A stretch of DNA of 64,000 bases. It comes from Thermaceae bacterium (GTDB lineage Bacteria; Deinococcota; Deinococci; Deinococcales; Marinithermaceae). The translations under genes and the position numbers were made by a program. The stretch lies in NCBI GenBank assembly GCA_027067955.1, contig JAMOUW010000063.1, positions 1 through 64,000 on the forward strand. The letters are read 5' to 3'. This document shows, one piece after another, positions 721 to 56,789 of this stretch (position 1 is the first letter of the stretch; the number at the start of each line of letters is the position of its first letter). The notes beneath the pieces were generated by a model. It saw only the letters and a program-made list of their open reading frames with translations. It was not told the origin of the DNA and searched no databases.

Positions 721-951
721 ATGAAGCGCAAGCTCATCCGTATCGACGACTCGCGGGGCGTCGCGCTGCCGCCAGATATTCTGGACCTCCTAGGTCTTAA
801 TCCTGGCGGAGAGGTAGAGATTCTGGTGGTGGGGAGCACCATGATAATGGCCGCCAGTGACGCTGATCCGGCGGAGCTGGAAGCAGCGCTTGCCTATCTA
901 AAGTCCAAACGCGAGCGCGAAGCGCTATACCGCAGGCTGACCGATGCCTAG
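721..951 (+). CDS. AbrB/MazE-type antitoxin
   Basis: This 76-residue protein has the short swapped-hairpin AbrB/SpoVT fold signature at its N-terminus (MKRKLIRIDDSRGVALPPDIL, followed by LGLNPGGEVEILV). A charged C-terminal tail with KSKREREALYRRL would bind and neutralise the toxin. I chose the ATG at 721 over a GTG 33 bases upstream because the fold starts right after it. It overlaps the following Doc gene by 8 bases, the classic antitoxin-first toxin-antitoxin layout. It probably represses its own operon through the AbrB domain. Doc is more usually paired with Phd, so an AbrB partner is a less common pairing. Confidence 0.85.
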   Translation: MKRKLIRIDDSRGVALPPDILDLLGLNPGGEVEILVVGSTMIMAASDADPAELEAALAYLKSKREREALYRRLTDA

Positions 952-1333
952 GTATGTCACCCGGCGGCTGGCGCTGGCCATTCACCATGACCTAATCGAA
1001 ACCTTCGGCGGTGGGCGCGGACTGCGCGATCCAGGAAGGCTGGAGGCCGCAATCGAGGCGCCCAGGGCCGCCTTTGGAGATGAGGAGCTCTACCCGGATC
1101 TGGCCGACAAGGCGGCGGCATACCTGATGAGTCTGTCTCGCGGTCACCCTTTCGTAGACGGAAACAAGCGCACCGCCTTTGCTGTTGCAGACGTGTTCTT
1201 GCGCTTGAACGGCAGGAGGCTGGCGCTCGGTGACGACGACCTCTTTGAGCTGGTGCTGGCTGTGGCCCAGGGTAAAGCGGACGTTCCCGAGGTGGCAAGG
1301 ATTTTTCGGGCAGCTTGCGAGCTGTGCGATTAG
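944..1333 (+). CDS. doc: Doc-family toxin (Fic fold)
   Basis: This 129-residue protein carries the Fic/Doc core HPFVDGNKRTAF (about residues 66-77), with the catalytic His and the Asn, Lys and Arg of the family. Doc proteins are kinases that phosphorylate EF-Tu and so stop translation. The length fits Doc (about 125-130 residues) rather than the longer Fic AMP transferases. The start codon lies inside the end of the antitoxin gene, so the two are co-translated. The motif is intact and the toxin looks functional. Confidence 0.9.
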   Translation: MPRYVTRRLALAIHHDLIETFGGGRGLRDPGRLEAAIEAPRAAFGDEELYPDLADKAAAYLMSLSRGHPFVDGNKRTAFAVADVFLRLNGRRLALGDDDLFELVLAVAQGKADVPEVARIFRAACELCD

Positions 1334-4805: not shown

Positions 4806-6590
4806 ATGACCGGTACTAAAAAGCCTGCCCCTACGCAGGCGCTTGCTTGGAACGTCGCCCGGGCGCTCGAGTTGCTTTGGGGTGTGAGCCCCGCGGGTGT
4901 GGGCGTTCTGGCGCTGTTGATCGCCATGCAAGGGGCACTGCCGGTGGCGACAATCGTTATCAGCCAGCGGTTGATCGACGAGTTGGCGGGGGGCGGCCAA
5001 AACCCGCTCTTCTGGGTGGCCGCCTGGGCGGGCGTGCAGCTCCTGGGCGGTTTGCTGGGTCCCCTAGACCGTATGCTGCGCGGCGAACTGGCCGACCGCT
5101 TTACCGCGACCGTCAATCTGCGCCTGATGGAGAAAGCCGGCGAGCTTGCCGGGCTGGGCATAGTCGAAAACCCGGCCTACCACGACGACCTGGAAGTTCT
5201 CAGCCAGGGCGCGCGCAGCTACCCGCTCAACCTGATTGTCAACCTGGTCTTTCTTGCCCGCGATGCCGTCACGCTGATCGCGCTGGCGCTTTTACTGGCC
5301 GTTTACGCGCCCTGGATGCCCTTCTTGCTCCTCGCGGCGGCGCTGCCCCTGGCGCGCTCGCTGGTGGCGCAGCGTGAGGCCAGCTACCGGGCTTTGGTGG
5401 GGGCCAGCCCCGACGCACGCGAGATGAACTACCACGGCCGGGTGGCGCTGGGGCTCGAGCACGCCGCCGAGGTGCGGCTTTGGAACCTGGCGGGCTGGCT
5501 GGCGGACCGCTACCGCCAGCGCTTCGGGCGCGTCTTCGCGCGCATGCAGCGGGTGCGGCGCGAGGCGCTCTGGCGTTCGCTGCTCCCGCTCGCGCTTTTT
5601 TACCTGGCCGCCGGCTTCTCCCTCGGCTGGGCGGTGCGGGCGGCCGCCGCCGGAGCACTCAGCGTGGGCGCGGTGGTGCTGGTGCTCCAGGGCATCGCCC
5701 GCATGCAAAACAGCGCCCAGGGGGTGGTCGAGTCGCTGGGCTACCTCTTCGAGCGCTCGCTCTTCTTCGGTCACCTTTTCCGCTTCCTCGAGGCCGAGCC
5801 GCAGGTGCGACCGCCGGCACGCTCCCGGCCGGTGCCCGAGCGTCCGGAGATCGTCTTCGAAAACGTTGGTTTCGTTTACCCGGGTGGCCTGCGGGCGCTC
5901 GAAGGCGTTAGTTTTCGCATTCCCTACGGCCAGACCGTGGCCCTGGTGGGCGAGAACGGTGCTGGCAAGACCACGCTGGTCAAGCTGCTGTTACGCTTTT
6001 ACGACCCCGGCGAGGGCCGGATCCTGGTCGGCGGGGTGGACCTGCGCGAGCTCGACTTAGCCGACTGGAGGCGGCGGGTGGGCGCGGTATTCCAGAACTT
6101 CGGCCACTACGCCTTCACCCTGGGCGAGAACGTCGGCCTGGCGGACCTGGCGCGGCTGGACGACGAAAAAGCGATAACCGAAGCGGCCAGGGCCGCCGGG
6201 CTCGGCGAGCTGCTGGACCACCTGCCCGCAGGGCTGAAGACTCCCCTGGGCCGTGAGTTTGGCGGCGGCGAGCTTTCGGGCGGCGAGTGGCAGAAGCTGG
6301 CCATTGCCCGGGCGCTCTTTCGCCGGGCGGAGGTGCTGGTGCTCGACGAACCGACCGCCGCCCTCGACGCCCGCGCCGAACACCGGCTCTTCAGCAGCTT
6401 TGCCAAGCTAGCCCGCGGCCGCACGGCGCTGCTCATCAGCCACCGCCTGGCCTCGGTGCGCGAGGCTGACCGGATCCTCGTCCTCAAGGCCGGCCGCCTG
6501 GTCGAGGGCGGCAGCCACGACGAGCTCCTCGCCAAAGGCGGCGAATACGCCGAGCTGTGGCGGTTGCAGGCAGAGCGTTACGGGGAGTAA
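4806..6590 (+). CDS. ABC exporter half-transporter (membrane domain fused to ATPase)
   Basis: This 594-residue protein has a six-helix membrane domain (residues 1-320) followed by a nucleotide-binding domain with Walker A GENGAGKTTLV, Q-loop AVFQNFGHY, signature LSGGEWQK, Walker B VLVLDEPTAALD and H-loop ISHRLAS. It is a complete half-transporter that should dimerise to export an unknown substrate such as a lipid, peptide or drug. The signature with GEWQK and the long helices recall exporters placed near peptide clusters, but no partner gene is adjacent. It starts 6 bases after GGAGGACA and runs convergently into the next operon, with 38 bases between stops. Confidence 0.9.
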   Translation: MTGTKKPAPTQALAWNVARALELLWGVSPAGVGVLALLIAMQGALPVATIVISQRLIDELAGGGQNPLFWVAAWAGVQLLGGLLGPLDRMLRGELADRFTATVNLRLMEKAGELAGLGIVENPAYHDDLEVLSQGARSYPLNLIVNLVFLARDAVTLIALALLLAVYAPWMPFLLLAAALPLARSLVAQREASYRALVGASPDAREMNYHGRVALGLEHAAEVRLWNLAGWLADRYRQRFGRVFARMQRVRREALWRSLLPLALFYLAAGFSLGWAVRAAAAGALSVGAVVLVLQGIARMQNSAQGVVESLGYLFERSLFFGHLFRFLEAEPQVRPPARSRPVPERPEIVFENVGFVYPGGLRALEGVSFRIPYGQTVALVGENGAGKTTLVKLLLRFYDPGEGRILVGGVDLRELDLADWRRRVGAVFQNFGHYAFTLGENVGLADLARLDDEKAITEAARAAGLGELLDHLPAGLKTPLGREFGGGELSGGEWQKLAIARALFRRAEVLVLDEPTAALDARAEHRLFSSFAKLARGRTALLISHRLASVREADRILVLKAGRLVEGGSHDELLAKGGEYAELWRLQAERYGE

Positions 6591-6628
6591 AAGTGGCCTG
6601 CTAAATTACCGGTGGAATCCTCGGGCTT

Positions 6629-8269
6629 TCAACCTCCGCCTGACAAAAACTTTCCCACACCTACGCCAGCCCGAAAAGCCTGCTTCCAGTCAATTTCGGG
6701 AGGTAAAGTTTTTATATCAGGCGCACCATCGGGCTGAAGCTCAACCTTAACTTCTGCCGGCAGCAAGTGGTCGACCTGGAAGCTGGCTGAATACTCACCC
6801 GATTCACTAAAGCCCAGCTCTGTTTGCCGCAAGTCCTTTGGCGTGCGAACTTGCAACAAAATTACGCCATCTTTAGGCAGCTCAGCCTTTACGTGCACTT
6901 CAACTCCATGGGGGTTACGAAACGCTTCCCAGGAAACCAGGCGCGGCGTAAATCGCAGCGGCACTCTTTCAATTTCGAACGCGTCCCCTTGGTAAACATA
7001 ATCAATTAACAAAGTGTCATTTGAGTTTGGTACTAAATCGTCAAGGCTTTTACTGGCGTCTTCTTGGGACACTAAACGAAACTGTAAGTAACCAGCTTGT
7101 AAACCACGAGTTTTCTTCGCGCTGAACCGGCTTCGTTCGGTCCATTCAAGAATATCCTGGTAGCCATTAAGCTCTAGGTGGAGCACATTTTTAGGCAGAA
7201 GCTCAAACTCAACGCGTACTTCATCGTCCCCTAACCCCAGCGATACTCCTTCATCCTCGGGGCGAACCCAAACCGGCCCACCATTTTCGTCAAGCTTGGG
7301 CTTCCATCTAAAACGGTCCCGCGCGCCAGAAGCCAAACGAGCCTCACCAGTAACCCAACGGTTTTCTAGCAATACAGTTCTGTGTTTTATATCAGGTATT
7401 ATTTCCAAGCCTTCCAAGCCAGAAAGTCTAGTTAGACTTTCCTGGGACACTAAACGCACTTTTACACGCCTGCGCCTAGTAGCGTGTTTAGGTTTTTTCT
7501 CGCGCACCTTTGAGATTGTTTCATAGCTTCCAAACCCTACGTAAGACGTTAAGAGATCGCGCAACAATTTCTCTGACTTTTTGCGGAGATATCTGAATGG
7601 ATGCGGTTTCGAGAAGAATAACCCCATGCTTTGCAATTCACCTATAAACTCCTCTTCACTTGTTTTTTCTCTTAAATATCTCCAAGCAAGGTCAGGCTCA
7701 TCTTTCAAAGCTGATAACAGGTTGTATACCCCCTCGAAGATGCGTTTATACGTTTCTGAGTGGTGAGCCACATGCCGATATTCAGATTTTGCTGCAAACA
7801 TTGCCCATGCATCGGGCTCCCTACCCGATTCCCGCTCCCGCAAGTACTCGCTGAGCAGTTCAGCCAATGCTTTTGCCCGTAGCCCTTTAACGCCCCATAT
7901 ATTGTTTATAGTTTCTACAAGCATACGGTTGTTATTCTTTTCTACTAGATATTTCCTAGTTTCAGGATGCGTGCTAAAAGCTTCCCACAACTCATCGAAA
8001 CAAAATGGGTTTGGTTGTGTTTGTTTTACATTTAATTCAGAAAAGAATGGACCCCAAAACTCCTTGGGATTTTCTGGCACTTCGCGATATAGCGTGTAAC
8101 CCCTTAAATAGCCGAGTGCAACAAGACGCTCGTCATCGCTCCATGACTTACAACCATCTTTAAGCCAAAGTCTTTTAAAGACGCTTTTTAAATACGCATA
8201 TTCATCTTCATTGACAAAAAAATTGATCGGACCGTGGGTTTTCAATCGTCGTATCACCACATGCCACAT
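6629..8269 (-). CDS. Unknown protein, last gene of the helicase operon
   Basis: I do not recognise this 546-residue protein. The first 250 residues look helical and charged (YAYLKSVFKRLWLKDG, RIFEGVYNLLSALKDEP). A basic patch follows (KVREKKPKHATRRRRVKVRL). The last 280 residues are beta-rich, with repeated RLVS, RVEFELLPKNVLHLEL and VEVHVKAELPKDGVILLQV strands like tandem beta-sandwich domains. The phrase VRLVSQESL returns later as FRLVSQEDAS, which suggests an internal domain repeat. There is no signal peptide and no catalytic motif that I can name. The start is 2 bases after the stop of the previous gene, with GGAG 8 bases upstream, so it is co-translated with it. Confidence 0.85.
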   Translation of the reverse strand: MWHVVIRRLKTHGPINFFVNEDEYAYLKSVFKRLWLKDGCKSWSDDERLVALGYLRGYTLYREVPENPKEFWGPFFSELNVKQTQPNPFCFDELWEAFSTHPETRKYLVEKNNNRMLVETINNIWGVKGLRAKALAELLSEYLRERESGREPDAWAMFAAKSEYRHVAHHSETYKRIFEGVYNLLSALKDEPDLAWRYLREKTSEEEFIGELQSMGLFFSKPHPFRYLRKKSEKLLRDLLTSYVGFGSYETISKVREKKPKHATRRRRVKVRLVSQESLTRLSGLEGLEIIPDIKHRTVLLENRWVTGEARLASGARDRFRWKPKLDENGGPVWVRPEDEGVSLGLGDDEVRVEFELLPKNVLHLELNGYQDILEWTERSRFSAKKTRGLQAGYLQFRLVSQEDASKSLDDLVPNSNDTLLIDYVYQGDAFEIERVPLRFTPRLVSWEAFRNPHGVEVHVKAELPKDGVILLQVRTPKDLRQTELGFSESGEYSASFQVDHLLPAEVKVELQPDGAPDIKTLPPEIDWKQAFRAGVGVGKFLSGGG

Positions 8270-8271
8270 TA

Positions 8272-8781
8272 TTATTCTCCGTCAAATCTTGCAATTATTT
8301 CTTCGAGTCTGACCCAATGCCACAAGGCGATGAGATAAATTTCCGCTTTTTTTCTTTCTTCTCCACCAAGATGCAGACTTAATAGCTGATATAACTTGTA
8401 TGCCCATTCATGCACCAATTTAACAGAGTCTTCAAGCTCGCTCTGGCGGCTGCTTTGGGCTTCTGTACCCAATAAGTCATGAAACTCGCTCAAAGACTTT
8501 GCCAATGGATACAACGCATTCTCGATCCAGACGTTGGGGTGTCTGATATATTTTTTAAATGCTAGCAGTTCCTTGCACTCTTTTTTTAATCTGTTAATTT
8601 GTTCATATGCCTCTTCTAATTCAAGGCGACAGGCGTCATACTTTTTGCGTATGTAGGCGTCCTCGTTTAACCTCCTTTCCGCATCGCTTAGGTGGTCGTT
8701 GCATTCATCAAAACGGGTTTTGAGTTTCTCCCACTCCTTTTCAGCATGCCTCAGGCTTTCCTGGCAGCCCTGTTTATTCAT
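8272..8781 (-). CDS. Small coiled-coil protein of the helicase operon
   Basis: The 169-residue product is mostly a charged helix. Residues 5-75 form a likely coiled coil (AEKEWEKLKTRFDECNDHL, LELEEAYEQINRLKKECKEL), and a helical C-terminal part ends in AEIYLIALWHWVRLEEIIARF. I recognise no family. The ORF opens at 8814, but the ATG at 8781 has GGAGAGAGG just upstream and overlaps the end of the previous gene by 8 bases, so I take that start. Its role is probably structural, bridging the proteins encoded on either side; this is inference from context. Confidence 0.75.
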   Translation of the reverse strand: MNKQGCQESLRHAEKEWEKLKTRFDECNDHLSDAERRLNEDAYIRKKYDACRLELEEAYEQINRLKKECKELLAFKKYIRHPNVWIENALYPLAKSLSEFHDLLGTEAQSSRQSELEDSVKLVHEWAYKLYQLLSLHLGGEERKKAEIYLIALWHWVRLEEIIARFDGE

Positions 8782-9970
8782 CGCCTCTCTCCAGTAATGG
8801 CTTTGTGTTCTCATTTACAAGCTTGCGAAGCCTGTAAAGGTAAGTTTCTGTATCAAAAAGTGATGTTTCAACCCAGCGTGCAAGGGGAATGCTTATCATG
8901 TCGTGCAAGAGTTTGTCAATATCTGTCAAGATGACGCCTGAAGGCCTACCTGCCAAACTTGCCCAGTTTGTTTTGCTTAGCATTGGTTCGTCTTTATCTG
9001 TCAAAGCTGCTTCATACAGCCTAATTAATGCAACCAGCCGGCGCTTTGGCTCCTCAGCAAGTGATGCATAGGGCACAATCCAAACGCCGCTTAGCTCTTC
9101 TGGCTTAAAGGGCAATTGCAGCTCAGCCCTTTTCGGTACCGGTTGGGGCGGCGGTATTTTTGGGCAGGGTTCTCTTGCCTCCTTTTGCGTTTGCTTGAGT
9201 AACATCTGGCAATCAATGAGCTTATTGTGTAAGTTAATGATTTTCGCTTCGAGCTTCGCGAGTCTCCGAGTCGAACTTGCAAGGCGTTGTTTTGCGTTCT
9301 CGTATTCGATATCACGGACTGCTTTTGTACGTCGCATGGATTCAAGATGTTGCGTTTGATTTTTTAGCTCTTGTCGCAGTTTTTTAATCTGTCCTCGATC
9401 CACCTCGTTAGTAGCCCGCTCCCTGCGAAGGGTTTCTTTGCACGCCTGAAATTCGCGGCGCAATTTCTCAACTTCCCGCTTTAGCGCTTTATTTTGCTGC
9501 CTAAAAACGCCCTCTTCAGACTCAGGGGTGCTGCCGACCCGATGCGGCTCCACAGCTTGGGCAAACCACTCCCAGCGAGGCAACGCTTTTGCTCTCTCTA
9601 AAAACAACGAAGCTGCTTCCCACCACTTTTTGTGAGGGATGGGCCGCTTAGTAAATGGCCAGCTTCCTTCCGCCAACTGCCGTAAATATTCTTCGGACGA
9701 TTCTAGCCATGTTTTGGCTATACCCCGAATCACCTCAGGGCGTTCTTTAAATATATTTTCTAATCTTTCCAGAATCCTCTCATCTGTTAGGTCAGCCAAC
9801 TTCGCCACCACCAAACGAGCAGCGATTTTACTGTGACGCGGAAAGTGTGTTATATATTGCCTAGCCAGTTCGTCGGGCTCAAGAAATCCAGAGAGCACTA
9901 TGCGCAGGCTCGCTATATCTCCCTCGGCAATAATTTGGCCTAACACCTCGTCAAAATTCAGCTTGATCAC
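8774..9970 (-). CDS. Helical-repeat and coiled-coil protein of the helicase operon
   Basis: This 398-residue protein has three parts. Residues 1-150 are helical-repeat-like (LGQIIAEGDIASLRIVLSGFL, KLADLTDERILERLENIF). Residues about 155-275 form a long coiled coil rich in Lys, Arg and Glu. After a Pro-rich linker (PKIPPPQPVPKR) comes a compact C-terminal domain of about 110 residues (LSGVWIVPYASLAEEPKRRL to LYRLRKLVNENTK). I know no family for it. It begins with GTG and overlaps the stop of the helicase gene by 4 bases (GTGA), strong evidence of translational coupling. The layout suggests a scaffold or DNA-bridging partner of the helicase. Confidence 0.85.
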   Translation of the reverse strand: MIKLNFDEVLGQIIAEGDIASLRIVLSGFLEPDELARQYITHFPRHSKIAARLVVAKLADLTDERILERLENIFKERPEVIRGIAKTWLESSEEYLRQLAEGSWPFTKRPIPHKKWWEAASLFLERAKALPRWEWFAQAVEPHRVGSTPESEEGVFRQQNKALKREVEKLRREFQACKETLRRERATNEVDRGQIKKLRQELKNQTQHLESMRRTKAVRDIEYENAKQRLASSTRRLAKLEAKIINLHNKLIDCQMLLKQTQKEAREPCPKIPPPQPVPKRAELQLPFKPEELSGVWIVPYASLAEEPKRRLVALIRLYEAALTDKDEPMLSKTNWASLAGRPSGVILTDIDKLLHDMISIPLARWVETSLFDTETYLYRLRKLVNENTKPLLERGDE

Positions 9971-12900
9971 TCCCTAGCGGCTCTTCTTGTAAGCCGTGAC
10001 AGCTCCCTCCGCCCAGTTTCATTGATGCGATATACATATCCGGACAAGTAACTTTCCGCGTCGATCAGACCGGCTTTGGCCAGCTCTTCAAGCTGTTTCT
10101 TTATTTCCTTCCACGTAACGAATGCCAGCCTGCCAAAAAAACGGTTGTTCATGAGCCATTTGGGAACAGTTCGCTGCTCACTGCCCGACCAGAACTTTTG
10201 TTTGCCTATAAGCGCGTTGGCTATAACAGCAGAACCGTAGCCGTTAAAGCGCTTTTCTTCGCCGCGCTGTTCCTGCCACGCCTCGAAAGCGTCTTGCATC
10301 CACTGTAAAAAATCAAGAATAACCTCTTTAGGCCTATACGCATCGCGGATTATGTTAATATTTAATTTTTCAACTGCCCACCAAGGTGGGTCGCCGTCAT
10401 GGTATCCACAACCAGAGCATTGCCCTAACTCGGCATCTTGATAGTGAAGTAAATACTTACGAAAACACCCAGGGTGTTCGGCATATTTCCTAACCTGTCT
10501 TACTCGTTCTTCAGCCAACTTATGCTGCTTTCGTGTTTGATTGCGTAGACGAATACTGCTGCGGCGATTGATCAACTGAATTCGCAATGCGGGTTGATAC
10601 GAGCGAAAAACGCGTAAATACCCCGATCTCCATTTGTCGTATAACCAATCATATTTGCGCGCCGCCTCGATAAAATCTTTTAAACTAGCAAAGTCCAGCA
10701 AACACCGATCGCCTTCAACCTTTGCAATGCCCGGACATTCAACTTCAACTATGCCACAGTCATCTGCAAGCATGGCTGCTTTACCTGGAAAGTGCTCGTA
10801 AGTTAACACATCTAAACTGGCAGCTCTGCTTAGAATTAGCTTCAGGTCATTTTCGCCGATATCCCCATAGCCATCTTCGTCGCCCCCTTCATTTGCTAGA
10901 GCATTTATTTCCTTAACAAGATCTTCGGCATAACCCAGCCAATCCTCATCACTAGCCAAGATTTCCAGGAGTGCTGTAACGTGATTTTCGTCATACGACC
11001 AACGTGTAGCCATCCACTCAAGCAGTTTCCAATCACTGGGTGAATGGCTCAAAAGAGCATATGCCTCCTTTCCGTCTCGGCCAGCGCGGCCTGAGCCCTG
11101 TAGGTAAGCCTCTAGGCTTTCGGGTGGCTCAAAATGAACTACTGCCCGCACATTGGACTTGTCGATCCCCATCCCGAAAGCTTTGGTTGCCACGACAATT
11201 GGTGTTTCACCCTCCTCAAAGCGCGATTGTACCTCAGCTCTAACAAGGTCTCCCAACCCAGCATGATAGGCTTCGGCCTTGAACCCCAATCTGCCTAGAG
11301 CCCAAGCAAGTCGTTCTGATTGCCGCTTGGTAAGTACGTAAGCAATAACACTCCAAGCACCTTCTTCATACTGGTTGCTCAAATGAGACAGGAGTTGTGT
11401 TAGTTCACTGAGTTTTTGAATGGGCGCGGCTTCTCCGCGGGCCTTATGTACGTAATATTTAATTTCGGGGCGATCTGGATGCGCTTCAATAACCTCAACG
11501 TCCTCGTCCGAGAGCCCGAATATCTCATAGAGCTCGCTACGCACCCTAGGAATAGCCGTTGCAGTTAGAGCAGTAATCGGAACACCAGGAGCCAGCTCGC
11601 TGCGAATGAGTTTAACAGCGTCTAGATAGTCTGGCCGAAAGTCGTGCCCCCATTCCGAAACGCTGTGGGCTTCGTCAAACACAAAGCGCTTCAAATGTTT
11701 GCTGATAATCTTTTCTTTGATTAGCGAGCGGAGATTGAGGTCGCGGACTATCCTCTCCGGGCTCAGGTAAAGAAGGTTTATGTTCCCCTTGCGCACTTCT
11801 TCATATACGGCCCCGCGCGCCGCAGCGAACATAGAAGAATCAACCTTGGCCGCCGGCAGGCCGCGGTCTTGCAACCCGCTGACTTGATCGGCCATCAGCG
11901 CTTTGAGTGGGGAAACGACAATGGTAAGCCCTTCCTCGACAAAGGCGGGGAGCTGAAAGACCAGGCTCTTTCCGTAGCCCGTTGGCAGGAAAACGAAAAC
12001 GTTTTGCCCAGAAAAAGCGGCGCTCATAGCCTCGCGTTGTTTTTTCTCGCGCTCGGCCTCTTTTGCCAAGTCAATGCCCTCCCAGAAAACTCGGGCAATT
12101 TCAACGGCCTTTTCAAGTGGCCCAGTCTCAGACTCCCTAATTTCGTAAAGGCGTCTAAGGGCACCGTCCAGGAGCTCCTCACTCGGTAGTTCTTTGCGCT
12201 CAACATCCAGAATCGGCGCTAGCGCGTTATAGAATTCTTCTCGAGTCTTGGGAAAGTGTTTATTTACACCTTTGGGTAAAGCATCAAGAAACCTGGTTTG
12301 GTAAAAAGCGTTTACGATGCGTTTATCCCACAGAACAAATACGCCTTCACCTGCTCCGACCCTGCTATCGCGAATGAGGCGGCCAAAGGCCTGCACGAAA
12401 AAAAGGGTTGCCTTGGGCATGTACACGTCTTCCCAGAGATTGAGGCCCTGCAGTTCGGCCAGCTGGCCACGCGCCTCGAGCAGGCGGTTAGGTACCGGAA
12501 AAGGTATACGTTCTAGCCCAACCAGTTTTAAGTTGGGCAGGTCAACACCCTCCATAAACGAGCGCGAGCCAAAAGTATGCCCCGGTGCCTCGGGTTGCGC
12601 TCGCATTCGCTGTACGGCGTCTTCCCGCTCCTTGCGAGTTAACGGAAGAAGTATATCGCTGCTGAGCTCCTTTGACTTTTTCAGCTTCGAACCGGCTTCT
12701 TTGAGGCGCGCGGTAGAGGTAAAAAGATTCAGGCTACGCTTGGCGTAGGGGAGAATCTGCTTTAGCTCTTCGTGCAAAAGGCGCGAAAACCGCTTTTGTA
12801 AGTCGCCACGCGCCTCCGGCAGGTGACCCGGAACGATCAAATGCGCCTTGTTGTACGGCAAAACCCCTGGCAGCTTTTTGGCAGCAACTTTCTTGAACGT

Positions 12901-14973
12901 TTCTTCTACACCCAGCGCACGCTTGATATAGGCAAAATCGTCCCCTAGGTCTAGGGTTGCACTGGTAAAAACGGCCCCTCTAGTTTTCCGCCAGAGCGGC
13001 GCCAGGTGTTCTACTAAGTCCACCGGCTGGGCCAGAATAGTCCAAGCATCGCTCGCGTACACGAGCTCCGCTACCCACTCCTTTTCGTCTAAGCGGCCGC
13101 CTACAGCTTGTTGCATTAATCTGGTAAGTTCGAGAAAGCGGTCTAGGGCGTCAAAAAGCGGGTCGAGCCTATAGTACAGGCGGCTGTCTTCCGGAATGAC
13201 TTCTCTTAATTTATTGAGCAGTTGTATCACCTGGTTACGGACCGACCCAACGGTGCCCGCGATTTGCGGCCACTCTTTTTTGCTGTTTGCTACTGGCATC
13301 AAGTCGAGCCGAATGTCGTACCTCGGATCGCCGTGTCCGTAGTTTTTCGCTAAAAATATCAAACCTTTATCTAGCTCTTTTAAAGCGGCCAATAGCTTGG
13401 GTGCGTAGTCTTCACGTAATTTCTTAGAGAATTGAAGCAGCGGTTCTGATGGCTCACTCCCCAGAAGCTTGGTTAAGCGGCCACGATCGCGAAAAAGGCC
13501 TATGCCCCGTTTTGGGTCATAAAGTCGCCTTATCCGAGCCGACAGCTCTTCGCCCGAAACTTGGCGCGCAAAACTAGCCGTAGCCTGACCCTCGAGATTG
13601 TGTGCCTCATCTACAACCAAACTGCAGCAGGCATCTTCTTCGCTTTGCGTGAAGGCGGCTTGATGGGCGAGCAACCATGCTTGGTTAGTAACCCAAACCT
13701 TAGCCCTCTTTTTGCGGCTTGTGACCCGAGTGAAGGCACAATGGCGATGCTCCAGCCCCTGACCGCAACGCTTGGCATTCGTTTCTACGCGGTAAAGTAC
13801 CTCACGAAAGCCGGGGCGGCTACGCCAGTATGCCGGTAAAGACTCAAGGTCATAGCCCCCTATGGAAGCATAGTAAATTAGCGCGCCCGTAACCGCGCGC
13901 CCATCTTCGCTCAGATGTTCGCGTTCGTTAAAGGCTTCTTTTAGGGCATCGAGGCATAGATAGTCGCGCGGGCTCTTAAGATTGACGGCGCTGACAGCGT
14001 AGCCTTCGTCGGCGATCTTTTGTAACTCCTCGATGGCTTGTGTTTGCAACACCTTGGTATGCGTGGCGACTATATACGGCTTGCTTTGCGGCTTTTCTTT
14101 GGAGGCCTTGTGGAGTATCGGGAAAAGGTAGCCGCGCGTTTTGCCGGTACCGGTGGGCGCTTCGATAAGCAGGGCATGACCCTTTTCTCCAAGGGTTTCG
14201 AATACAAGCTTCATCATTTCAAGCTGGGCTTCGCGCTTGTCTCCTAGCAAATTTGCGTGCTCATCGGGATTTGACCATGTTGCTGGGAAAGGCTTCCCTT
14301 CCGAGTGCACCCAAGGGATGTTTGCATCCCTACCCAAAGTTTTTTGTAGAGCTTCAATTAGCTGTTCTGGTTTCTTGGGTGTTTGCAGCCCTAAAAATTC
14401 TGCTTCTTCAATCTCCAACGCTGACCAGACGGTGGTTACATTGGGATCTACCTTCCCGGCCGCATCCTTTAGGTATTTGGCCACCTCAATATTTGTACGC
14501 ACGTCTGCTAGTGCCTCATGGGCAGACGCCGGTTTTTGTCGAGAAAAGAACTGATATAAGTCCGAAAGCCCATACCCAATCAAGTTATGCGGGGGCGTCG
14601 GAAGAATAAGATGAGCGAGGCGCAGCGTATCTAAAGCACGGTTATCCAACCGCTTCAATTCGTGCATCTTTAGCTGGCGGTTAATGACTGGTAGATCAAA
14701 ACCTAGGATGTTGTGACCTGCTAGAGCCTCGCTGCCTACATAATTTAGGAATTCTTGGAGAACGACTTTGGCGTCTCTGGCGTTATTGATATAGGTGTTA
14801 TGGCTAAAACCAACTAATTCCCAAAACTCATCATCTTCGGTTGGGAGGCTTTCGACGCTCAAGAAGGCATTGAAGGGTTCTCGGTTTTTGGCGGCGGCAG
14901 CTATCTGCAGGATCTCCGCCTCTTCTGGGTTGGCGGAGGTCGCTTCTAGATCGAAAAAGATGTATATGCTCAC
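9967..14973 (-). CDS. Triple fusion: DnaQ-like exonuclease, DinG/XPD helicase, RecQ helicase
   Basis: Residues are numbered from the upstream GTG at 15015. The exonuclease (15-190) has FDLEAT (D22, E24), GFD (D107) and HEALAD (H166, D171), a full DEDDh set. The DinG/XPD-like helicase (255-930) has Walker A APTGTGKT at 286-293, VVDEAH at 468-472 and QAFGRLIRD near 875. Its iron-sulfur region shows only three clear Cys (354, 417, 426). The RecQ-like part (985-1682) has PTGYGKS at 1011-1017, FDEAH at 1113-1117, QGSGRAGRDG at 1306-1315, a zinc site C1517, C1533, C1536 and H1539 with His replacing the usual last Cys, and a winged-helix tail. Exonuclease-DinG fusions exist in Firmicutes DinG; adding RecQ is unusual. 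The GTG at 14973 (GGAG 6 bases upstream) is the better start. It heads a four-gene coupled operon. Confidence 0.9.
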   Translation of the reverse strand: MSIYIFFDLEATSANPEEAEILQIAAAAKNREPFNAFLSVESLPTEDDEFWELVGFSHNTYINNARDAKVVLQEFLNYVGSEALAGHNILGFDLPVINRQLKMHELKRLDNRALDTLRLAHLILPTPPHNLIGYGLSDLYQFFSRQKPASAHEALADVRTNIEVAKYLKDAAGKVDPNVTTVWSALEIEEAEFLGLQTPKKPEQLIEALQKTLGRDANIPWVHSEGKPFPATWSNPDEHANLLGDKREAQLEMMKLVFETLGEKGHALLIEAPTGTGKTRGYLFPILHKASKEKPQSKPYIVATHTKVLQTQAIEELQKIADEGYAVSAVNLKSPRDYLCLDALKEAFNEREHLSEDGRAVTGALIYYASIGGYDLESLPAYWRSRPGFREVLYRVETNAKRCGQGLEHRHCAFTRVTSRKKRAKVWVTNQAWLLAHQAAFTQSEEDACCSLVVDEAHNLEGQATASFARQVSGEELSARIRRLYDPKRGIGLFRDRGRLTKLLGSEPSEPLLQFSKKLREDYAPKLLAALKELDKGLIFLAKNYGHGDPRYDIRLDLMPVANSKKEWPQIAGTVGSVRNQVIQLLNKLREVIPEDSRLYYRLDPLFDALDRFLELTRLMQQAVGGRLDEKEWVAELVYASDAWTILAQPVDLVEHLAPLWRKTRGAVFTSATLDLGDDFAYIKRALGVEETFKKVAAKKLPGVLPYNKAHLIVPGHLPEARGDLQKRFSRLLHEELKQILPYAKRSLNLFTSTARLKEAGSKLKKSKELSSDILLPLTRKEREDAVQRMRAQPEAPGHTFGSRSFMEGVDLPNLKLVGLERIPFPVPNRLLEARGQLAELQGLNLWEDVYMPKATLFFVQAFGRLIRDSRVGAGEGVFVLWDKRIVNAFYQTRFLDALPKGVNKHFPKTREEFYNALAPILDVERKELPSEELLDGALRRLYEIRESETGPLEKAVEIARVFWEGIDLAKEAEREKKQREAMSAAFSGQNVFVFLPTGYGKSLVFQLPAFVEEGLTIVVSPLKALMADQVSGLQDRGLPAAKVDSSMFAAARGAVYEEVRKGNINLLYLSPERIVRDLNLRSLIKEKIISKHLKRFVFDEAHSVSEWGHDFRPDYLDAVKLIRSELAPGVPITALTATAIPRVRSELYEIFGLSDEDVEVIEAHPDRPEIKYYVHKARGEAAPIQKLSELTQLLSHLSNQYEEGAWSVIAYVLTKRQSERLAWALGRLGFKAEAYHAGLGDLVRAEVQSRFEEGETPIVVATKAFGMGIDKSNVRAVVHFEPPESLEAYLQGSGRAGRDGKEAYALLSHSPSDWKLLEWMATRWSYDENHVTALLEILASDEDWLGYAEDLVKEINALANEGGDEDGYGDIGENDLKLILSRAASLDVLTYEHFPGKAAMLADDCGIVEVECPGIAKVEGDRCLLDFASLKDFIEAARKYDWLYDKWRSGYLRVFRSYQPALRIQLINRRSSIRLRNQTRKQHKLAEERVRQVRKYAEHPGCFRKYLLHYQDAELGQCSGCGYHDGDPPWWAVEKLNINIIRDAYRPKEVILDFLQWMQDAFEAWQEQRGEEKRFNGYGSAVIANALIGKQKFWSGSEQRTVPKWLMNNRFFGRLAFVTWKEIKKQLEELAKAGLIDAESYLSGYVYRINETGRRELSRLTRRAARE

Positions 14974-15126
14974 CCCGAGCTCCATTTGCAATGTAGAGTT
15001 GCTGCTAACGGGCACTGACCACTTTGAATCATATTGACGTATGGGCGATGTTAGGAAATCTATCTAAATAATACTACTAAAGTTTTGGTTTGTCAGCACC
15101 GTGCGCTTGCTGACCTCGCTGGCACG

Positions 15127-15471
15127 GTGCCCCCTGTGAGCGCCCGGCCTGTAGAGCCGCGGGGCGATTTGGAAGGTTACCAGTGGGTGCGGGCCGCTTT
15201 GGGTGGAGCCGTGTATGGCGAGAGGGTTCGGTTTGCCCACGGTCGCTGGCACACGCGCCACCAGGGCCGCTACCTGATCTACGCTGCGGAGCATCCAGCG
15301 CTGGTGCTCTGTGGGCTGCTGGTTCACGACGACGGGCTGGCCGAGGTGGTGCTGGTCGGTTTTGTGCTGCGTGCGCCGGGTTTGGACGAAATACCCCGCC
15401 GGCAGAACTTTTTAATCAGGCCACACGACCTGCTGGTTTCGCTTCGCGTGGTTAGCAAAGAGCGCATCTAG
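15127..15471 (+). CDS. Small protein of unknown function
   Basis: The product is about 114 residues with alternating strands (LGGAVYGERVRFAHGRWHTRH, YLIYAAEHPALVLCGLLVHDD, LAEVVLVGFVLRAPG) and an EIPRRQNFLIRP segment. I know no family. The ORF opens with TTG at 15085. I favour the GTG at 15127, or the one at 15136, because the residues before it lack structure, but no strong ribosome site decides it. Base composition fits the GC-rich core, unlike the operon to its left, so it lies just outside the putative insertion. It ends in a GC-rich hairpin. Confidence 0.5.
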   Translation: MPPVSARPVEPRGDLEGYQWVRAALGGAVYGERVRFAHGRWHTRHQGRYLIYAAEHPALVLCGLLVHDDGLAEVVLVGFVLRAPGLDEIPRRQNFLIRPHDLLVSLRVVSKERI

Positions 15472-15520
15472 GTGGACGAGCGGCTGTGCTGTACCTGAGC
15501 TGACTTCTCCCCAAAGCGCA

Positions 15521-15542
15521 CACCGGCCCCGTGGGGCCGGTG
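15521..15542. terminator. GC-rich hairpin between convergent genes
   Basis: The arms CACCGGCCCC and GGGGCCGGTG form a perfect 10-bp stem with a 2-base loop. It lies between the end of the small plus-strand gene and the end of rny on the minus strand. The following T-run is weak (TTGCGTTG), so it may work by structure or in both directions. Confidence 0.55.
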
Positions 15543-15563
15543 TTGCGTTGAATAGTCGGAAGC

Positions 15564-17312
15564 CTACTTGGCGTAGTCCACCGCCCGGGTTTCGCGCACC
15601 ACGGTTACCTGCACCTGGCCGGGGTAGTCCATGTCGCGCTCGATGCGCTGGGCGATCTCGCGGGCCAATAGGGTGGCCTTGGCGTCGTTGACCTTGCCTG
15701 GCTTGACCAGCACCCGCACTTCGCGGCCGGCCTGGACGGCGAAGGCCTGCTCCACGCCGGGGAAGCTGGTGGCGATCTGCTCGAGCTGCTCCAGCCGCTT
15801 GATGTAGTCTTCCATGCTTTCGCGGCGCGCGCCCGGGCGGGCGGCGCTGATGGCATCGGCGGCGGCCACCAACACGGCGTAGGTGGTCTCGGCGTTCTCC
15901 GGGTCGTGGTGGTGGGCGATGGCGTCGAGCACCTCGGGCGGCTCGCCGAAGCGCTTGGCCAGGGCGATGCCGATGTCGACGTGGGTGCCCTCGATCTCGC
16001 GGTCCACGCTCTTGCCGATGTCGTGCATCAGCCCGGCCCGGCGCGCCAGGTTGACGTCGAGGCCCAGCTCGGCGGCCAGGATGCCCGAGAGGTGGGCCAC
16101 CTGGATCGAGTGTTTGAGCACGTTCTGACCGTAGCTGCTGCGGAAATGCAGCCGGCCCAAAAGCTGCACCAGGCCGGGCTTGAGCCCCACCACGCCGGCC
16201 TCGAGGGCGGCCTCCTCGCCGCGCTCGTAAAGGTAGTGCTTCATCTCCTCCTTGGCCTTTTCCACCACCTCTTCGATACGGCTGGGGTGGATGCGGCCGT
16301 CGGTGACGAGCTGCTCGAGCGCCATCTTGGCGATCTCGCGGCGCACCGGGTTGAAGGAGCTGAGGATGACCGCTTCGGGGGTGTCGTCGATGATCAGGTC
16401 CACCCCGGTCAGCGACTCGAAGGTGCGGATGTTGCGCCCTTCGCGGCCGATTATCCGGCCCTTCATTGCGTCGGAGGGAATGGGCACCACGCTTACCGCC
16501 AGCTGGGCGGCGGTTTCCGAGGCCTGGCGCTGGACCGCCTGGGCGATCAGGTGAGCAGCCTGCTTTTTGGCGTCAAGCCGGGCCCGCTCCAGAGCGGCCT
16601 TGACGTGGATAGCCTTCTCTTCTTCCAGCTCTTCGTCGAGTCGCGAGAGTAACAGTTGCCTGGCCTCCTCGCGGGTCAGGCCGGCTATCTCTTCCAGTTT
16701 GAGGTCTATCTCGCGGACCCGCTTTTCCAGACTTTCGGCCAGTTGCGCCAGGCGGCGCTCCTCGGCCACCAGCTTTTTTTCCTGTTCATCCAGGCGGGAG
16801 GCGCGGGCATCGAGCTGCTCGCCGCGGCGGGCCAGGCGCTCGTCCTGCCTTTTGAGCTCCTCGCGCTCACGGCGAATGGCTTCCAGGTCGCGCTCAATGC
16901 GTTCGCGTTCGCGGCCCAGGTCGGCTTCGAGTCGCTGGCGCTCCTCGGCCAGGCGACTTTTCATCTCGGCTTCCAGCTTGGCGCGCAGGCGATCGGTTTC
17001 GGCTTCGGCGCGCTCGCGCAGCTGCCGCGCCTCGGCGCGGGCCTCCTCCAGCTCGCGGCGGGCCTGCTCGCTGATACGGGCCGCCTCCTCGCGGGCGCTG
17101 GCGCGAAGCGCTTCCGCCTCGCGCTGCGTTTCCTCGATCAAGCGACGGCGCTCGGCCTGCAAGCGACGGCGTTCCTCCTCGGCGGTCTGGCGCAGCTTTT
17201 CGATCTCTTCGATCAGCGGTGCGCTTCCCGCGTCGCCAGCGCGGCGGCTGGCCAGCAGCGCGCCGCCACCAGCGAGAAGGGCGGTGAGGACAATGATGAC
17301 GATGGTTTCCAT
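15564..17312 (-). CDS. rny: Ribonuclease Y
   Basis: The 582-residue product has the standard RNase Y layout. An N-terminal membrane anchor ([18 protein letters not shown]) is followed by a coiled coil of some 170 residues rich in Glu, Arg and Ala. A KH RNA-binding domain with [15 protein letters not shown] comes next, then an HD domain with MHDIGKSVD and HHHDPEN. It is a membrane-tethered endonuclease that starts mRNA decay. The length is somewhat above the usual 510-520 because of the long coiled coil. It lies 11 bases downstream of recA on the same strand, with GGAGGGCTCC before the ATG, so it is probably the last gene of the cinA-thpR-recA operon. Confidence 0.95.
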
Positions 17313-17323
17313 GGAGCCCTCCT

Positions 17324-18331
17324 CTAGGCTTTGGTATCTTCTGTGGTTTCCAGACTCAGCACCCGGTTACGGATCTCGTCTATCATTTCGGGGTTCGCGC
17401 GCAGGTAGTCGGCGGCCTTTTCCTTACCCTGGCCCAGGCGGATGTCGTTGTACGAGAACCAGGATCCCGATTTCTTTATCACGCCCCGGTCCACCGCTGC
17501 GGTTACCAGATCGGCTACCGGGTCGATGCCGCGCCCGAAGTAGAGCTCCAGCTCCGCCTCGCGAAAGGGGGGCGCCAGCTTGTTCTTGGTCACCTTGACC
17601 CGCACCACGTTGGCTATGGGCTGATCACCTTTCTTAATGGGCTGTCCCTTGCGGCGCACGTCCAGGCGGATCGAACTGTAAAACTTCAGGGCCCGGCCGC
17701 CGGTGGTCACCTCGGGGTTGCCGTACATGACGCCCACCTTCTCGCGAATCTGATTTATGAAGATGGCCGAGGTGTTGCTCTTAGACAGCACGCCGGTCAG
17801 CTTGCGCAGCGCCTGGCTCATAAGCCGCGCCTGCAGCCCCACATGGGCGTCGCCCATGTCGCCTTCGATTTCCGCCCGCGGCACCAGCGCCGCCACCGAG
17901 TCGACCACGATCACGTCCACCGCCCCCGAACGCACCAGCAGTTCGACTATCTCGAGCGCCTGCTCACCGGTATCGGGCTGGCTGAGCAGCAGGTTGTCTA
18001 CGTCCACACCCAGCTGGCGCGCGTAGACCGGGTCCAGGGCGTGCTCGGCGTCTACAAAAGCCGCCACGCCCCCGGCCTTTTGCGCCTGGGCGATGACGTG
18101 CAGCGCCAGGGTGGTCTTGCCGCCCGACTCGGGGCCGTATATTTCAGTGATGCGCCCCCTGGGGATGCCGCCGATACCCAGGGCCAGATCCAGCGCCAGG
18201 CTGCCGGTGGGGATTACCTCCACCTCCTGACGGGGGCGTTCGCCGAGGCGCATAATGGCGCCGGTTCCAAAGCGCTTTTCAATCTGCTTCAGGGTACTTT
18301 GCAAGGCCTTTTGCCGTTCGCTGTTCTCCAC
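17324..18331 (-). CDS. recA: Recombinase RecA
   Basis: RecA forms ATP-dependent filaments on single-stranded DNA, drives strand exchange and triggers SOS-type cleavage. The Walker A reads GPESGGKTT, with Gly where E. coli has Ser, a form known from Thermus. [29 protein letters not shown] and the C-terminal lobe are intact. The ORF opens with a GTG at 18340, but that codon is one base after AAAGGAG. The GTG at 18331 is ten bases after it and gives an N-terminus like the Thermus protein ([10 protein letters not shown]), so I use it. The start overlaps the end of thpR by about 53 bases. There are no inteins. Confidence 0.95.
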
Positions 18332-18854
18332 GTTTGCCACGCTCCTTTAGGGAAAAGGTGTCTAAAACCGTGTAGCGGGGGCCTGCGGGCGCAAGCCGGC
18401 TCTCGACGAGCGCGAAGGCCTCCACGGGGAACTCGATGTCGAAGACCACCGGCGCAACGCGGGGTGCGGGCCCCTTGCGCCGGGCCAGGGTGAGGTGGGC
18501 CTTGAAGGGTCGTTCTTCGTCCAAAAATTCGGGAAGTTCCTCACGCAGTGCCCGGGCGATGGGTTCGAACCCCGCGCCCTCGGCACGGGCGAACCATACG
18601 CGCGGCCGCCCTTCGTTTGGAAAAAATCCGGTACCGCGCACCCGCGCCAGGAAGGGTCCGCTGGCGCCCGCAGCGCTACGGGCGGCGGCGCGCACCCGGT
18701 CCAGCTCGCGGCCGGGAACCTCGCCCAAAAATCCCAGGGTAACGTGGATCTGGTCTTCCCGCACGGGTTTCCAGTGTCCGCGCAAAGACTGTTGCGCCGC
18801 AGCCAGCGCGCGCTGGACGGAGCGTGGTGGGAAAACCGCGAAAAAAAGTCTCAT
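18279..18854 (-). CDS. thpR: RNA 2',3'-cyclic phosphodiesterase (LigT/ThpR family)
   Basis: The protein has the two HxTx motifs of the 2H phosphoesterase family: HVTLGFLG (near residue 36) and HLTLARRK (near 124). The family opens 2',3'-cyclic phosphates on RNA and can ligate tRNA halves in reverse. I take the ATG at 18854 ([10 protein letters not shown]), which overlaps the cinA stop in ATGA, over the ORF opening 15 bases upstream. The last 17 codons run into recA. This tail ([22 protein letters not shown]) looks unlike the family core and may exist only because of the overlap. The cinA-thpR-recA order is known from Thermus relatives. Confidence 0.92.
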
Positions 18855-20047
18855 TGCAATTGGCTCCAAAATAGCGCCAGAGCCGCGTAAGCGGCGCGCA
18901 GACGCACAGCCTCGCGCCCCAGCGGGGGAAAGCGGTGGAGCTTCGTTCGGGTGCCCTCCGGGCCGGCCAGCCCGACGTAAACGGTGCCGACCGGGTGTCC
19001 CTCCAGTTCGTCAGGTCCGGCCACACCGGTGGTGGCCAGGCCGTAAGTGGCGTTTAGCTCGCGCCGGGCGGCTTGCGCCATGGCGGCGGCGGTCCCGGCG
19101 GATACGGCCCCCTGGGCCGTGAGGGTATCGGCAGGCACGCCAAAACGAGCCTTTGCGCCCATGGAATAGGATACCATGCCCCCCAGGAAGCTCTGGCTGG
19201 AGCCGGGGAGGGTGGTCAGCAAAGAGGCCAGCAACCCGCCGGTCAGCGATTCCATGGCGGCCACGGTGGCCGCCCGCCGCTGCAGACGATCCTGAACCAG
19301 CCCCGGAAGGGTGTCGGCGTCGTAGCCCCATACGTATTCCGCCAGGCGGTGTGACACCTCCGCTATCCAGCGGTTCACGGGTTCGGGGTGGCCCGCCGCG
19401 GTCAGGTATACCCCGTCGGGGTGTGCGTAGATGCCGCTCGTCACACCCTCGTTCCAAATACCGGCTATCCGCTCCATTATCTGCGATTCGCCCAGACCGA
19501 AGGTCTTGATCTGTCGGCGCACCTTGCCGCTTTCGGGCAGGTCCAGTTGCGGCAGCAGCCGTTCCCACATCGGCTTCCACTCGGCGGGCGGACCGGGGAG
19601 CACCACCAGATCGCGTCCTTCTTCGCGCAGCCACCAGCCGGGGGCGGTGCCGCGGGGGTTATCCAGCCAGCGGGCGCGATCTGGCTTTTGGGCCTGTTTG
19701 CGGTTGTGGTCGTTCATTCGCCGGCCCAGCCGTTCGAAGCGGCGGGCGATCCGGGCCAGCATTTGCGGGTCTTCTGCAAGCTCCAGCCCGAGCCCGCCGG
19801 CCACCGCAGCGGTGGTTACGTCGTCGGGGGTGGGCCCCAGGCCGCCCAAAAAAACCAGCAGGCGGGTGTCCGCCCACAGTTCGCGGGCGGTTTCGGCGAT
19901 GCGGTCTGGGTTGTCGGCCACGCGCAGCGTGCGCCAGACATCGAGCGCGTAGGGGCGCAGGCTGCGGGCCACATCAGCGGTGTTGGTGTCGAGCGTCTCG
20001 CCGCTGATCAGCTCGCTGCCGACGCCGACAATTTCGGCGGTATCCAT
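18851..20047 (-). CDS. cinA: CinA-family protein
   Basis: This 398-residue protein joins an N-terminal molybdopterin-binding-like (COG1058) domain, with [14 protein letters not shown] and [18 protein letters not shown], to a C-terminal nicotinamide mononucleotide amidohydrolase domain, with [19 protein letters not shown] and [20 protein letters not shown]. CinA members recycle pyridine nucleotides (ADP-ribose pyrophosphatase and NMN deamidase activities) and are often co-transcribed with recA and competence genes. That is the case here: its stop overlaps the thpR start. It is the first gene of the operon, and no convincing -35/-10 pair was found upstream. Confidence 0.93.
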
Positions 20048-54058: not shown

Positions 54059-54390
54059 TAAGCCCTCCCCTCGGGGAGGTGGCTGCGAAGCAGCCGGAGG
54101 GGGTTTTATTCAGGGTGTAGGAGGTGGGGCGTAGGGTGTGGGACGGCCATGCATTGGCAACCGACTTTTGGAGTTCGCATCGCCTAAAACCCCCACCCCC
54201 AACCCTCCCCCAGGGGAGGGAGCGTTTTTTGCAGTGACCGAACCGTGGAGTTTGGGCGCGGCATGGTCCCCGGATCTCGTTCGCTGGTAGCTCACTCGTC
54301 CGGGAACACAGTTTAGTTTCTGCAACCTGGCCGATGTTGTACCACCGGGCGAGCCCGCGAAGAGGGTGAGACCCGGGGTCCATGCTGTAC
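54059..54390 (+). repeat. Long direct repeat, copy 1 (332 bp)
   Basis: This stretch is base-for-base identical to 58582-58913. It begins with a C-rich hairpin (CCCTCCCCTCGGGGAGG then GCTGCGAAGCAGC and a run ending GGGGGTTTT), has a second one (CCCTCCCCCAGGGGAGGG) and ends GGGTCCATGCTGTAC. It contains no convincing gene. With its twin it flanks the peptide cassette, so it may be a recombination site or a duplication scar. Confidence 0.95.
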
Positions 54391-54479
54391 AGAAAGCCGA
54401 AATTGCGTTGTCGTTGACATACCCGCCACCACAAGCCGCTTTTATCCGTATCCCCGGACGAGGCAACCAAGTGGTTGCC

Positions 54480-54512
54480 GAGATCCGGGGTCCATGCTGT
54501 ACGCGAAGCCGA
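54480..54512 (+). repeat. Extra copy of the 33-base end of the long repeat
   Basis: GAGATCCGGGGTCCATGCTG and the following TACGCGAAGCCGA closely match 54368-54400 and 58891-58923. Three copies in all suggest that this end is an element in its own right. Confidence 0.7.
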
Positions 54513-54588
54513 CGTTTCACTGCTGTAGCAAAACCAACGAGTGTAGGAGAGGATTTCAAGCCTTCCCCTACAGCGAAATACTATTTAC

Positions 54589-54680
54589 TCAGCTCTTCAG
54601 CAAGTCCACGAAGACCTGCGGCTGCTGGCGCTCGCTGGTGCGCTCGAGCACCCAGGCCGTTTCCATGAGCGTCCGCTCCC
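54589..54680 (-). pseudogene. Amidase C-terminal fragment
   Basis: On the minus strand this reads the last 30 or so codons of an amidase: METAWVLERTSERQQPQVF then VDLLKS and stop. It differs from the intact amidase at 60559-62289 at a few bases and ends differently (DLLKS against DLLADGGRSEA). It is therefore the tail of a related, not identical, gene. Homology stops abruptly near 54680. The rest of that gene has been lost, presumably when the cassette region was rearranged. Confidence 0.75.
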
Positions 54681-55096
54681 TGGCCCCAGAGATTCCCTTT
54701 GGCGACGGTTTGTGGTCGCTTCCTGTTCAAGCAGTATGGCGTTGGGGAGCGGAATAGAGATGCGCGGCTCGGCTGTCTGAGCCAGAGTTATTTTTACAAA
54801 GTAAATTTGTCTGTACTTTTCAATAAGTTAAGTGTTGTTGTTATAAGAAAACTGCGCGCTCACCTGATTACTTCCTTACCGGCTCGAAGGTGTAAATGCC
54901 CTCACGGGTCGGAATGTAACGTAGCAGCTGCTGTTGTAGATGGAAATCGACGCCCCATCGCCTTATATGTTTTCTGAAGCGCCAAGCGGCAGGCCCAACT
55001 TTTATTTTATGAACATTTTGACTTACTTGTTTTTGAAGGCTTTAAGAAACTACTATGACAACCGGTCTACTGGCTTTTTGCACGCCAAGCGCTACT

Positions 55097-56011: not shown

Positions 56012-56764
56012 TCAATACCTCCCGAGGACACCTTTATGCCTAACCTGGACGTAGACCCAGGCCATGGCGCCGAGGCCAGCAGCCAGAAACAGAAAGCTCT
56101 GAACAAGGGCGATTGCCGCTAGGTCAGGAGGCAGGCTTTTCCCCGTAAAACTGAGCCTGAGAAGCTGGACCGCGGGGGCGAAGGGCAGATATGCCTTCCA
56201 GGGGTCGAACCGGACTAAAGAAAAAAAGTACGGGAGAAAAAGGAACTGGACAATTGTGAACAATCCTTCCACGCGCTTGAAGTAAAGGGCGATCGCCCCC
56301 ATCCCCAAAGCAAAGCCAAGTGAGGACAAAAACAGGGGGAGGAGGCCCAGGGGCCACCAAGAAGCTGGCCTCAGCTCAACGTCGAGCAAAAGCGCCAAAG
56401 GAAGCAGCGTAAGAAAGGCCCACAGCAGGCCGGAAAGGCCTTCCACGAAAGCCCTGATTAAAAGTTGCCGGAGGAGGCCGCCCCGGGCTAAGGCCAGGTG
56501 TTCCAAAGTTCCCTGGCTAACCTCAGACTGTATTGTGTACGCGATGGATTGGAAGGTGGCGACGGTAAGGTTAAACGCGACGAAAACCAGGAGTAGAGGG
56601 CCCAGGTCAAGGCCCAGGTCGTCCCCCGGGGAGAGGCTTTTTAAACCTAGAATGATCGCGTAAAAATAGAGAATACTACCCAGCAGACCTGCCAGTTCGT
56701 TGAACCAGTAGCGCTTTCTCAGCACCCAGTTTAAGAGCGCCTCGCTCCATAGCTGCCAAAACAC
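56012..56764 (-). CDS. ABC-2 permease of the peptide cassette
   Basis: The 250-residue membrane protein has six segments (GLLGSILYFYAIILGLKSL, LLLVFVAFNLTVATFQSIAY, LLWAFLTLLPLALLL and others) and the ABC-2 coupling pattern SEVSQGTLEHLALARGGLLRQL. It lacks peptidase or other domains, so any leader removal needs another enzyme. It starts with GTG, with AGGAG 8 bases upstream. A hairpin separates it from the small peptide gene. Confidence 0.88.
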   Translation of the reverse strand: MFWQLWSEALLNWVLRKRYWFNELAGLLGSILYFYAIILGLKSLSPGDDLGLDLGPLLLVFVAFNLTVATFQSIAYTIQSEVSQGTLEHLALARGGLLRQLLIRAFVEGLSGLLWAFLTLLPLALLLDVELRPASWWPLGLLPLFLSSLGFALGMGAIALYFKRVEGLFTIVQFLFLPYFFSLVRFDPWKAYLPFAPAVQLLRLSFTGKSLPPDLAAIALVQSFLFLAAGLGAMAWVYVQVRHKGVLGRY

Positions 56765-56789
56765 AATAAACTCCTAAGGTGTGGTAAAC

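Follow-up and report, generated by a model that had tools for sequence, protein, structure and literature searches.

Within a 64,000-nucleotide stretch of DNA from a Thermaceae bacterium (contig JAMOUW010000063.1; referred to here as the window), four minus-strand genes, which we call A to D, form an operon led by a fusion of a DEDDh exonuclease with two different helicases, one related to DinG/XPD and one to RecQ. Taken together with its relatives, this operon is probably a DNA-processing system of the Thermales that is dispensable and passes horizontally between hosts, and whose most likely role is in defence against foreign DNA, be it phage, plasmid or transforming DNA; we put the probability of this reading at roughly 0.58.

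The features on which the analysis is based are collected in Table 1. A first-pass annotation, made from the DNA letters alone, had described a block of four genes with coupled starts and stops, and both the frames and their junctions were found to be as claimed: A and B overlap within the tetranucleotide GTGA, B and C overlap by 8 bp, and C and D are separated by 2 bp. For two of the genes the longest frame begins further upstream (9967-15015 for A and 8272-8814 for C); in each case the internal start given in the table is favoured by the sequence of the start region and by the N-termini of homologues. The insert that carries the operon also holds a 128-aa plus-strand open reading frame upstream of A (window positions 15085-15471), which has no relative in the other loci compared.

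Table 1 Coordinates of the inserted block, the four genes and the domains of gene A in the window.
Feature	Position	Strand	Details
Inserted accessory block	6582-15519		Absent from congener G001; bounded by blastn against L172
Gene A, DEDDh exonuclease + DinG/XPD helicase + RecQ helicase fusion	9967-14973	minus	1668 aa from GTG 14973
DEDDh 3'-5' exonuclease domain of A	14482-14961	minus	PF00929 RNase_T, E 3.3e-12, residues 19-178
DinG/XPD-like helicase domain of A	12256-14238	minus	Helicase_C_2, E 2.3e-24; TIGR01407 dinG_rel and DinG models
RecQ helicase core of A	10954-12057	minus	TIGR00614 recQ_fam; Pfam DEAD and Helicase_C
RecQ-like zinc-binding stretch of A	10396-10551	minus	PF16124 RecQ_Zn, E 0.002, below cut-off
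Gene B, helical protein with coiled coil (~153-265) and conserved small C-terminal domain (~290-385)	8774-9970	minus	398 aa
Gene C, small coiled-coil protein	8272-8781	minus	169 aa from ATG 8781
Gene D, all-helical N-terminal half (~1-246) and beta-rich C-terminal half, orphan family	6629-8269	minus	546 aa

Gene A had been credited with an intact DEDDh exonuclease and two complete helicase engines. Pfam places DEAD and Helicase_C_2 domains of the DinG type at residues ~260-920, DEAD and Helicase_C domains of the RecQ type at ~990-1320, and a weak RecQ_Zn match at 1489-1536 (residues of A are numbered throughout along its longest frame, of 1682 aa). In an alignment of 16 sequences, reaching down to 30% identity, the DEDDh residues D22, E24, D107, H166 and D171 are invariant in all 16, as are the Walker lysines K292 and K1016 and both DE motifs. 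The domains and their motifs therefore stand as described, and it is the word “complete” that is weakened, since the iron-sulphur motif of the DinG half retains only three of its four cysteines in the window copy and in its nearest homologue, L056, as against four of four in the other 14 sequences; any Fe-S cluster in that branch may thus be altered. The zinc-binding stretch is made up of three cysteines and a histidine in the window copy and of four cysteines in homologues, with C1517, C1533 and C1536 invariant in the motif table.

Scored against curated families, A falls outside TIGR01407, which groups DnaQ exonuclease/DinG helicase proteins, with 225.7 bits against a cut-off of 547.7 and its domains in order over residues 18-919. 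It is a member of the RecQ family TIGR00614 (313.8 bits against a cut-off of 219.8; residues 991-1337) and lies below the cut-off of the RecQ equivalog TIGR01389 (318 of 640 bits). The end of the protein gives a weak Pfam match to ABC-3C MC2 (E 0.17). None of the libraries searched lists, as a family, a protein that unites a nuclease with two distinct SF2 motors in this way.

The partners of A had been characterised as a helical or coiled-coil protein, a small coiled-coil protein and a 546-residue protein with a beta-rich C-terminus, a description that was upheld. The AlphaFold2 model of B has a mean pLDDT of 62 and is confident in the coil and the C-terminus only, while that of D reaches pLDDT values of ~70-90 in the N-terminal half and is low elsewhere; both models were built on 6-7 sequences and are partly of low confidence. 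No family above cut-off was found for B, C or D in Pfam, PADLOC or NCBIfam. D likewise had no match in PHROG, neither B nor D had a match in fold searches at E<=0.001, and profile searches of both against solved structures returned only chance or coiled-coil matches. The name “transcription antiterminator BglG”, which RefSeq gives to D in several Thermus records (for example L021:15317-16861), was set aside, as Pfam gives it no support. B, C and D represent orphan families, to which the operon is the sole clue.

The association of these four genes is consistent across the Thermales. The order A-B-C-D is kept at every locus examined that has an uncut A (C being identified in one of them, L066, by position and size alone, at 141 aa), so that in the Thermales sampled the fusion is not a protein found mostly without its partners. 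The same holds in a collection of plasmids: 21 records carry at least 80% of A, 21 carry D, and the two sets are identical. Mantel correlations are 0.975 for A with B, 0.979 for A with D and 0.957 for B with D, as compared with 0.54-0.57 against RNase Y of the same hosts. Furthermore, five Thermus rows that form a clade in the RNase Y tree (100/99 support) are rejected as a clade by A (AU p 9e-54). A, B and D share one history, in conflict with that of their hosts, and A-B-C-D is a conserved unit that moves between hosts. The one exception to the linkage is found on a plasmid of Deinococcus actinosclerus (L024:6189-16739), which encodes a divergent A-like DEDDh-DinG-RecQ fusion (70% covered, 34% identity) preceded by a UvrD-type helicase and followed by an 886-aa orphan, without B, C or D; this locus is perhaps a sister system.

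The distribution of the operon is that of an accessory element. Full-length A is present in 14 of the 111 genomes of the phylum; truncated or contig-edge pieces are found in three more, and in a fourth D lies beside a cut A, giving about 18 of 111 (~16%) when fragments are counted, and two of six within the genus. Seven of the 22 RNR-bearing Thermus megaplasmids, that of HB8 among them, lack A-D. Within the genus an empty site was identified in G001, where the ABC-transporter and rny (RNase Y) genes lie 109 bp apart, as opposed to ~8.9 kb in the window; by blastn, window positions 4874-6581 and 15520-19036 correspond to the adjacent stretches 11664-13371 and 13480-17001 of L172. In G003 the same site holds a contig-edge fragment of A whose protein is 57% identical to that of the window, alongside an rny that is 93-95% identical, which implies either that different alleles have come to occupy the site or that A evolves very fast. 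The suggestion that the operon is a housekeeping repair locus, conserved in all close relatives, was rejected on the grounds of this patchy distribution, the clean empty site and the megaplasmids without A-D.

Base composition tells a similar story. The block had been noted as richer in AT than the core genes on both sides and hence as a candidate for transfer, a view that is upheld by the empty site, by the conflict between the A and RNase Y trees and by the composition itself: the operon has a GC content of 0.43-0.51 and a GC3 of 0.44-0.52, compared with 0.63-0.69 and 0.81-0.86 in the adjoining ABC transporter, rny and recA. The four A homologues measured have a GC3 of 0.77-0.89, so that the operon lies far below both its neighbours and its measured relatives, which points to a donor that has not been sampled. 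The operon is also repeatedly broken. B is split in L065 and L073 by an insertion with TnpB-like and serine-recombinase-like open reading frames, which from its gene content reads as an element of the IS607 type; A is truncated in L069 and L070 and lies in pieces in T. thermophilus SG0.5JP17-16. A supposed inactivation of A in G061 by two TGA stops was dropped, as an open frame of 1658 aa exists there. Accessory distribution and lateral transfer, as expected of the class of anti-phage defence systems, are thus both seen. A phage origin of the operon was rejected on the sequences searched: no full-length fusion was found in 50,697 phage records, and viral contigs yielded no relative of D and, among the 80 loci listed for A, no full-length fusion.

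The genes found next to the operon suggest a defence-like neighbourhood, although these are strong single cases and not a rate measured against random loci. In L066, A-D lies between DrmA (929 bits) and DrmB of DISARM on one side and a type I HsdM (813 bits) with HsdS on the other (L066:601-6359 and 15646-19381); DrmA and DrmB are divergent genes there, separate from A-D. Within ~10 kb of A-D, we found BrxL in T. oshimai, Cas1, Cas2 and Cas4 in A. silvanus, Cas3 and Cmr genes in HB27, a CARF-RelE protein in L060, a RES domain in L062 and VapC in T. aquaticus; Thermus megaplasmids, though, abound in CRISPR and toxin genes in any case, which weakens the argument from neighbours. In other relatives the position directly after rny is taken by different genes: in congener G005 it is occupied by a gene for a NACHT-HEAT protein of 1126 aa (L173:660-4037), likely another defence gene, and in G011, of another genus, rny is directly followed by a SocA/Panacea antitoxin gene and its small, unassigned partner (L197:11605-12539). 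In most other relatives from the family, ordinary genes are found at this site.

The operon was also compared with named systems. HMM searches of all four proteins (PADLOC, Pfam and NCBIfam) give no match to any named system as a whole, in line with the first-pass annotation, which knew of none with this composition. DISARM, BREX and other multi-gene helicase defence systems resemble the operon in outline, joining a large SF2 helicase to partners in defence islands; they differ in that none of the Drm or Brx proteins is matched by B, C or D, and in that A matches other helicase models through its motors only. A-D is not itself a DISARM system: in PADLOC, no Drm match was found for B-D, nor for A among the matches listed. 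The PADLOC models for type IV-A CasDinG, DpdF and PsyrT are each scored by one helicase half of A, near the scores of generic DinG or RecQ models. A does not qualify as a Dpd protein, since NCBIfam DpdF reaches 215.6 of 550 bits through the helicase core only and B, C and D have no dpd match. Nor does the operon represent a type IV-A CRISPR system (CasDinG/Csf4), its DinG being fused to RecQ and DEDDh and B, C and D giving no csf match, or PsyrTA, the PsyrT match being confined to the RecQ core (residues 987-1371) with no PsyrA match in B, C or D. A RecQ helicase shares with A the RecQ core and the zinc-like motif, and A differs by its fusion to DEDDh-DinG. Firmicutes DinG, as in B. subtilis, has a DEDDh nuclease followed by an XPD/DinG helicase, but lacks both the RecQ half and the partners B-D (PMC12525004).

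The claim that the system was undescribed stands for the four genes and falls for the fusion. In the open-licence literature, preprints excluded, we found nothing published on the operon, on its spread or on the partners of A. The DnaQ-DinG-RecQ three-domain fusion of T. thermophilus HB27, however, was reported in 2005 together with its absence from HB8 (Omelchenko et al., PMC1274311), and it belongs to the same family as gene A of the window (38.6% identity over 99% of the length) and is followed on pTT27 by B, C and D. The accessible part of that paper covers the fusion and its absence from HB8, and not the operon, its spread, its transfer or a role in defence.

How such a system might operate can be proposed from the families of its parts. 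DinG/XPD helicases move 5'-3' and RecQ helicases 3'-5'. A, which unites the two motors and a 3'-5' exonuclease in a single polypeptide, could therefore travel along a duplex on both strands, digesting the 3' strand. In this scheme, DNA ends, forks or loops would be the loading sites of A. Its two motors, both of SF2 and expected by analogy with their families to have opposite polarity, could each follow one strand and still advance together in one net direction, and the 3' strand would be removed by the DEDDh domain during opening, the whole acting as a RecBCD-like bipolar engine made of SF2 parts. B and C, with their coiled coils, and D, with its helical and beta-rich halves, may provide the scaffold, target recognition and control. 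RecBCD and AddAB combine SF1 motors with a PD-(D/E)XK nuclease. The proposed likeness to them lies in two motors and a nuclease on one duplex, and A stands apart from them in having SF2 DinG and RecQ motors and a DEDDh domain, all in one chain. The first-pass annotation had likewise proposed that the four proteins form one complex, which unwinds and degrades foreign or damaged DNA; complex formation, DNA degradation, polarity, substrate, the rule separating self from non-self and the defence function are all parts of the scheme that we infer. A bolder version, in which A is a single-chain SF2 counterpart of RecBCD within a mobile innate immunity of the Thermales, with the orphan D recognising foreign as opposed to own DNA, is unlikely.

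Against a role in defence, B, C and D match nothing of known defence role among the families and folds searched, and the domains of A are those of repair-type helicases. The latter would suit an accessory module that serves DNA repair or the response to replication stress at high temperature, in which A would clear R-loops, cross-links or stalled forks, and B-D would tether A to the fork. Such a role would be in keeping with the B. subtilis DEDD-DinG protein, which degrades ssDNA 3'-5' and R-loops and acts in replication stress (PMC12525004), and with the HB27 fusion having first been listed in a study that compared megaplasmid genes related to thermophily (PMC1274311). A reverse gyrase that adjoins the operon in several T. 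thermophilus megaplasmids would also fit a function in genome maintenance. We nevertheless consider this module unlikely, because A-D is patchy within genus and species, is exchanged between genera and is repeatedly broken, and because transposon insertion is tolerated in HB27, where Tn-seq classes the recQ of pTT27 as a highly permissive shell gene (PMC13140390); we infer that this recQ is A, since searching the plasmids with A gives a single match on pTT27 of HB27.

Less probable still is a gate on DNA uptake or conjugation, at which single strands or joint molecules from natural transformation or transjugation are processed and their integration limited or promoted. The known hosts include highly competent Thermus, and a 3'-5' exonuclease with two helicases might well suit the processing of incoming strands; yet the annotated loci show no consistent linkage of the operon to genes for transfer or competence. 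A selfish module for megaplasmid maintenance or incompatibility, removing competing replicons, is very improbable: the 21 plasmid records in which A is nearly full length all come from Thermaceae and are mostly large, and ParA/ParB genes lie ~2-5 kb from the operon in M. taiwanensis and L065, but the copy in the window has core genes beside it, its insertion point being between the ABC transporter and rny-recA, and the copy of G007 sits on a single 2.27-Mb contig.

If the preferred reading of A-D as a mobile system acting on foreign DNA is true, T. thermophilus HB27, a laboratory workhorse, has carried an overlooked four-gene defence or DNA-processing system, with possible effects on transformation, on the stability of plasmids and on the host range of phages.

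Several further features were noted in passing. A pair of genes for a vWA and a Tubulin_2 (tubulin-like) protein recurs near the operon (L061:12230-16667, L025 and L080), sometimes with TROVE-domain genes, and on HB27 pTT27 an orphan of ~1,795 aa, with no match in Pfam or PADLOC, lies beside it (L021:2155-7542). Elsewhere in the window, a second AT-rich block (54059-58941) is bounded by 360-bp direct repeats that are 97.8% identical (54059-54418 and 58582-58941) and contains, on the minus strand, a gene for a radical-SAM/SPASM-looking protein (56954-58351) and an ABC transporter pair (55097-56011 and 56012-56764); judged by these genes, it looks like a cassette for peptide modification carried by a mobile element. 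Finally, a gene of the Fic/Doc family lies at window positions 944-1330 (PF02661, E 1.3e-18).
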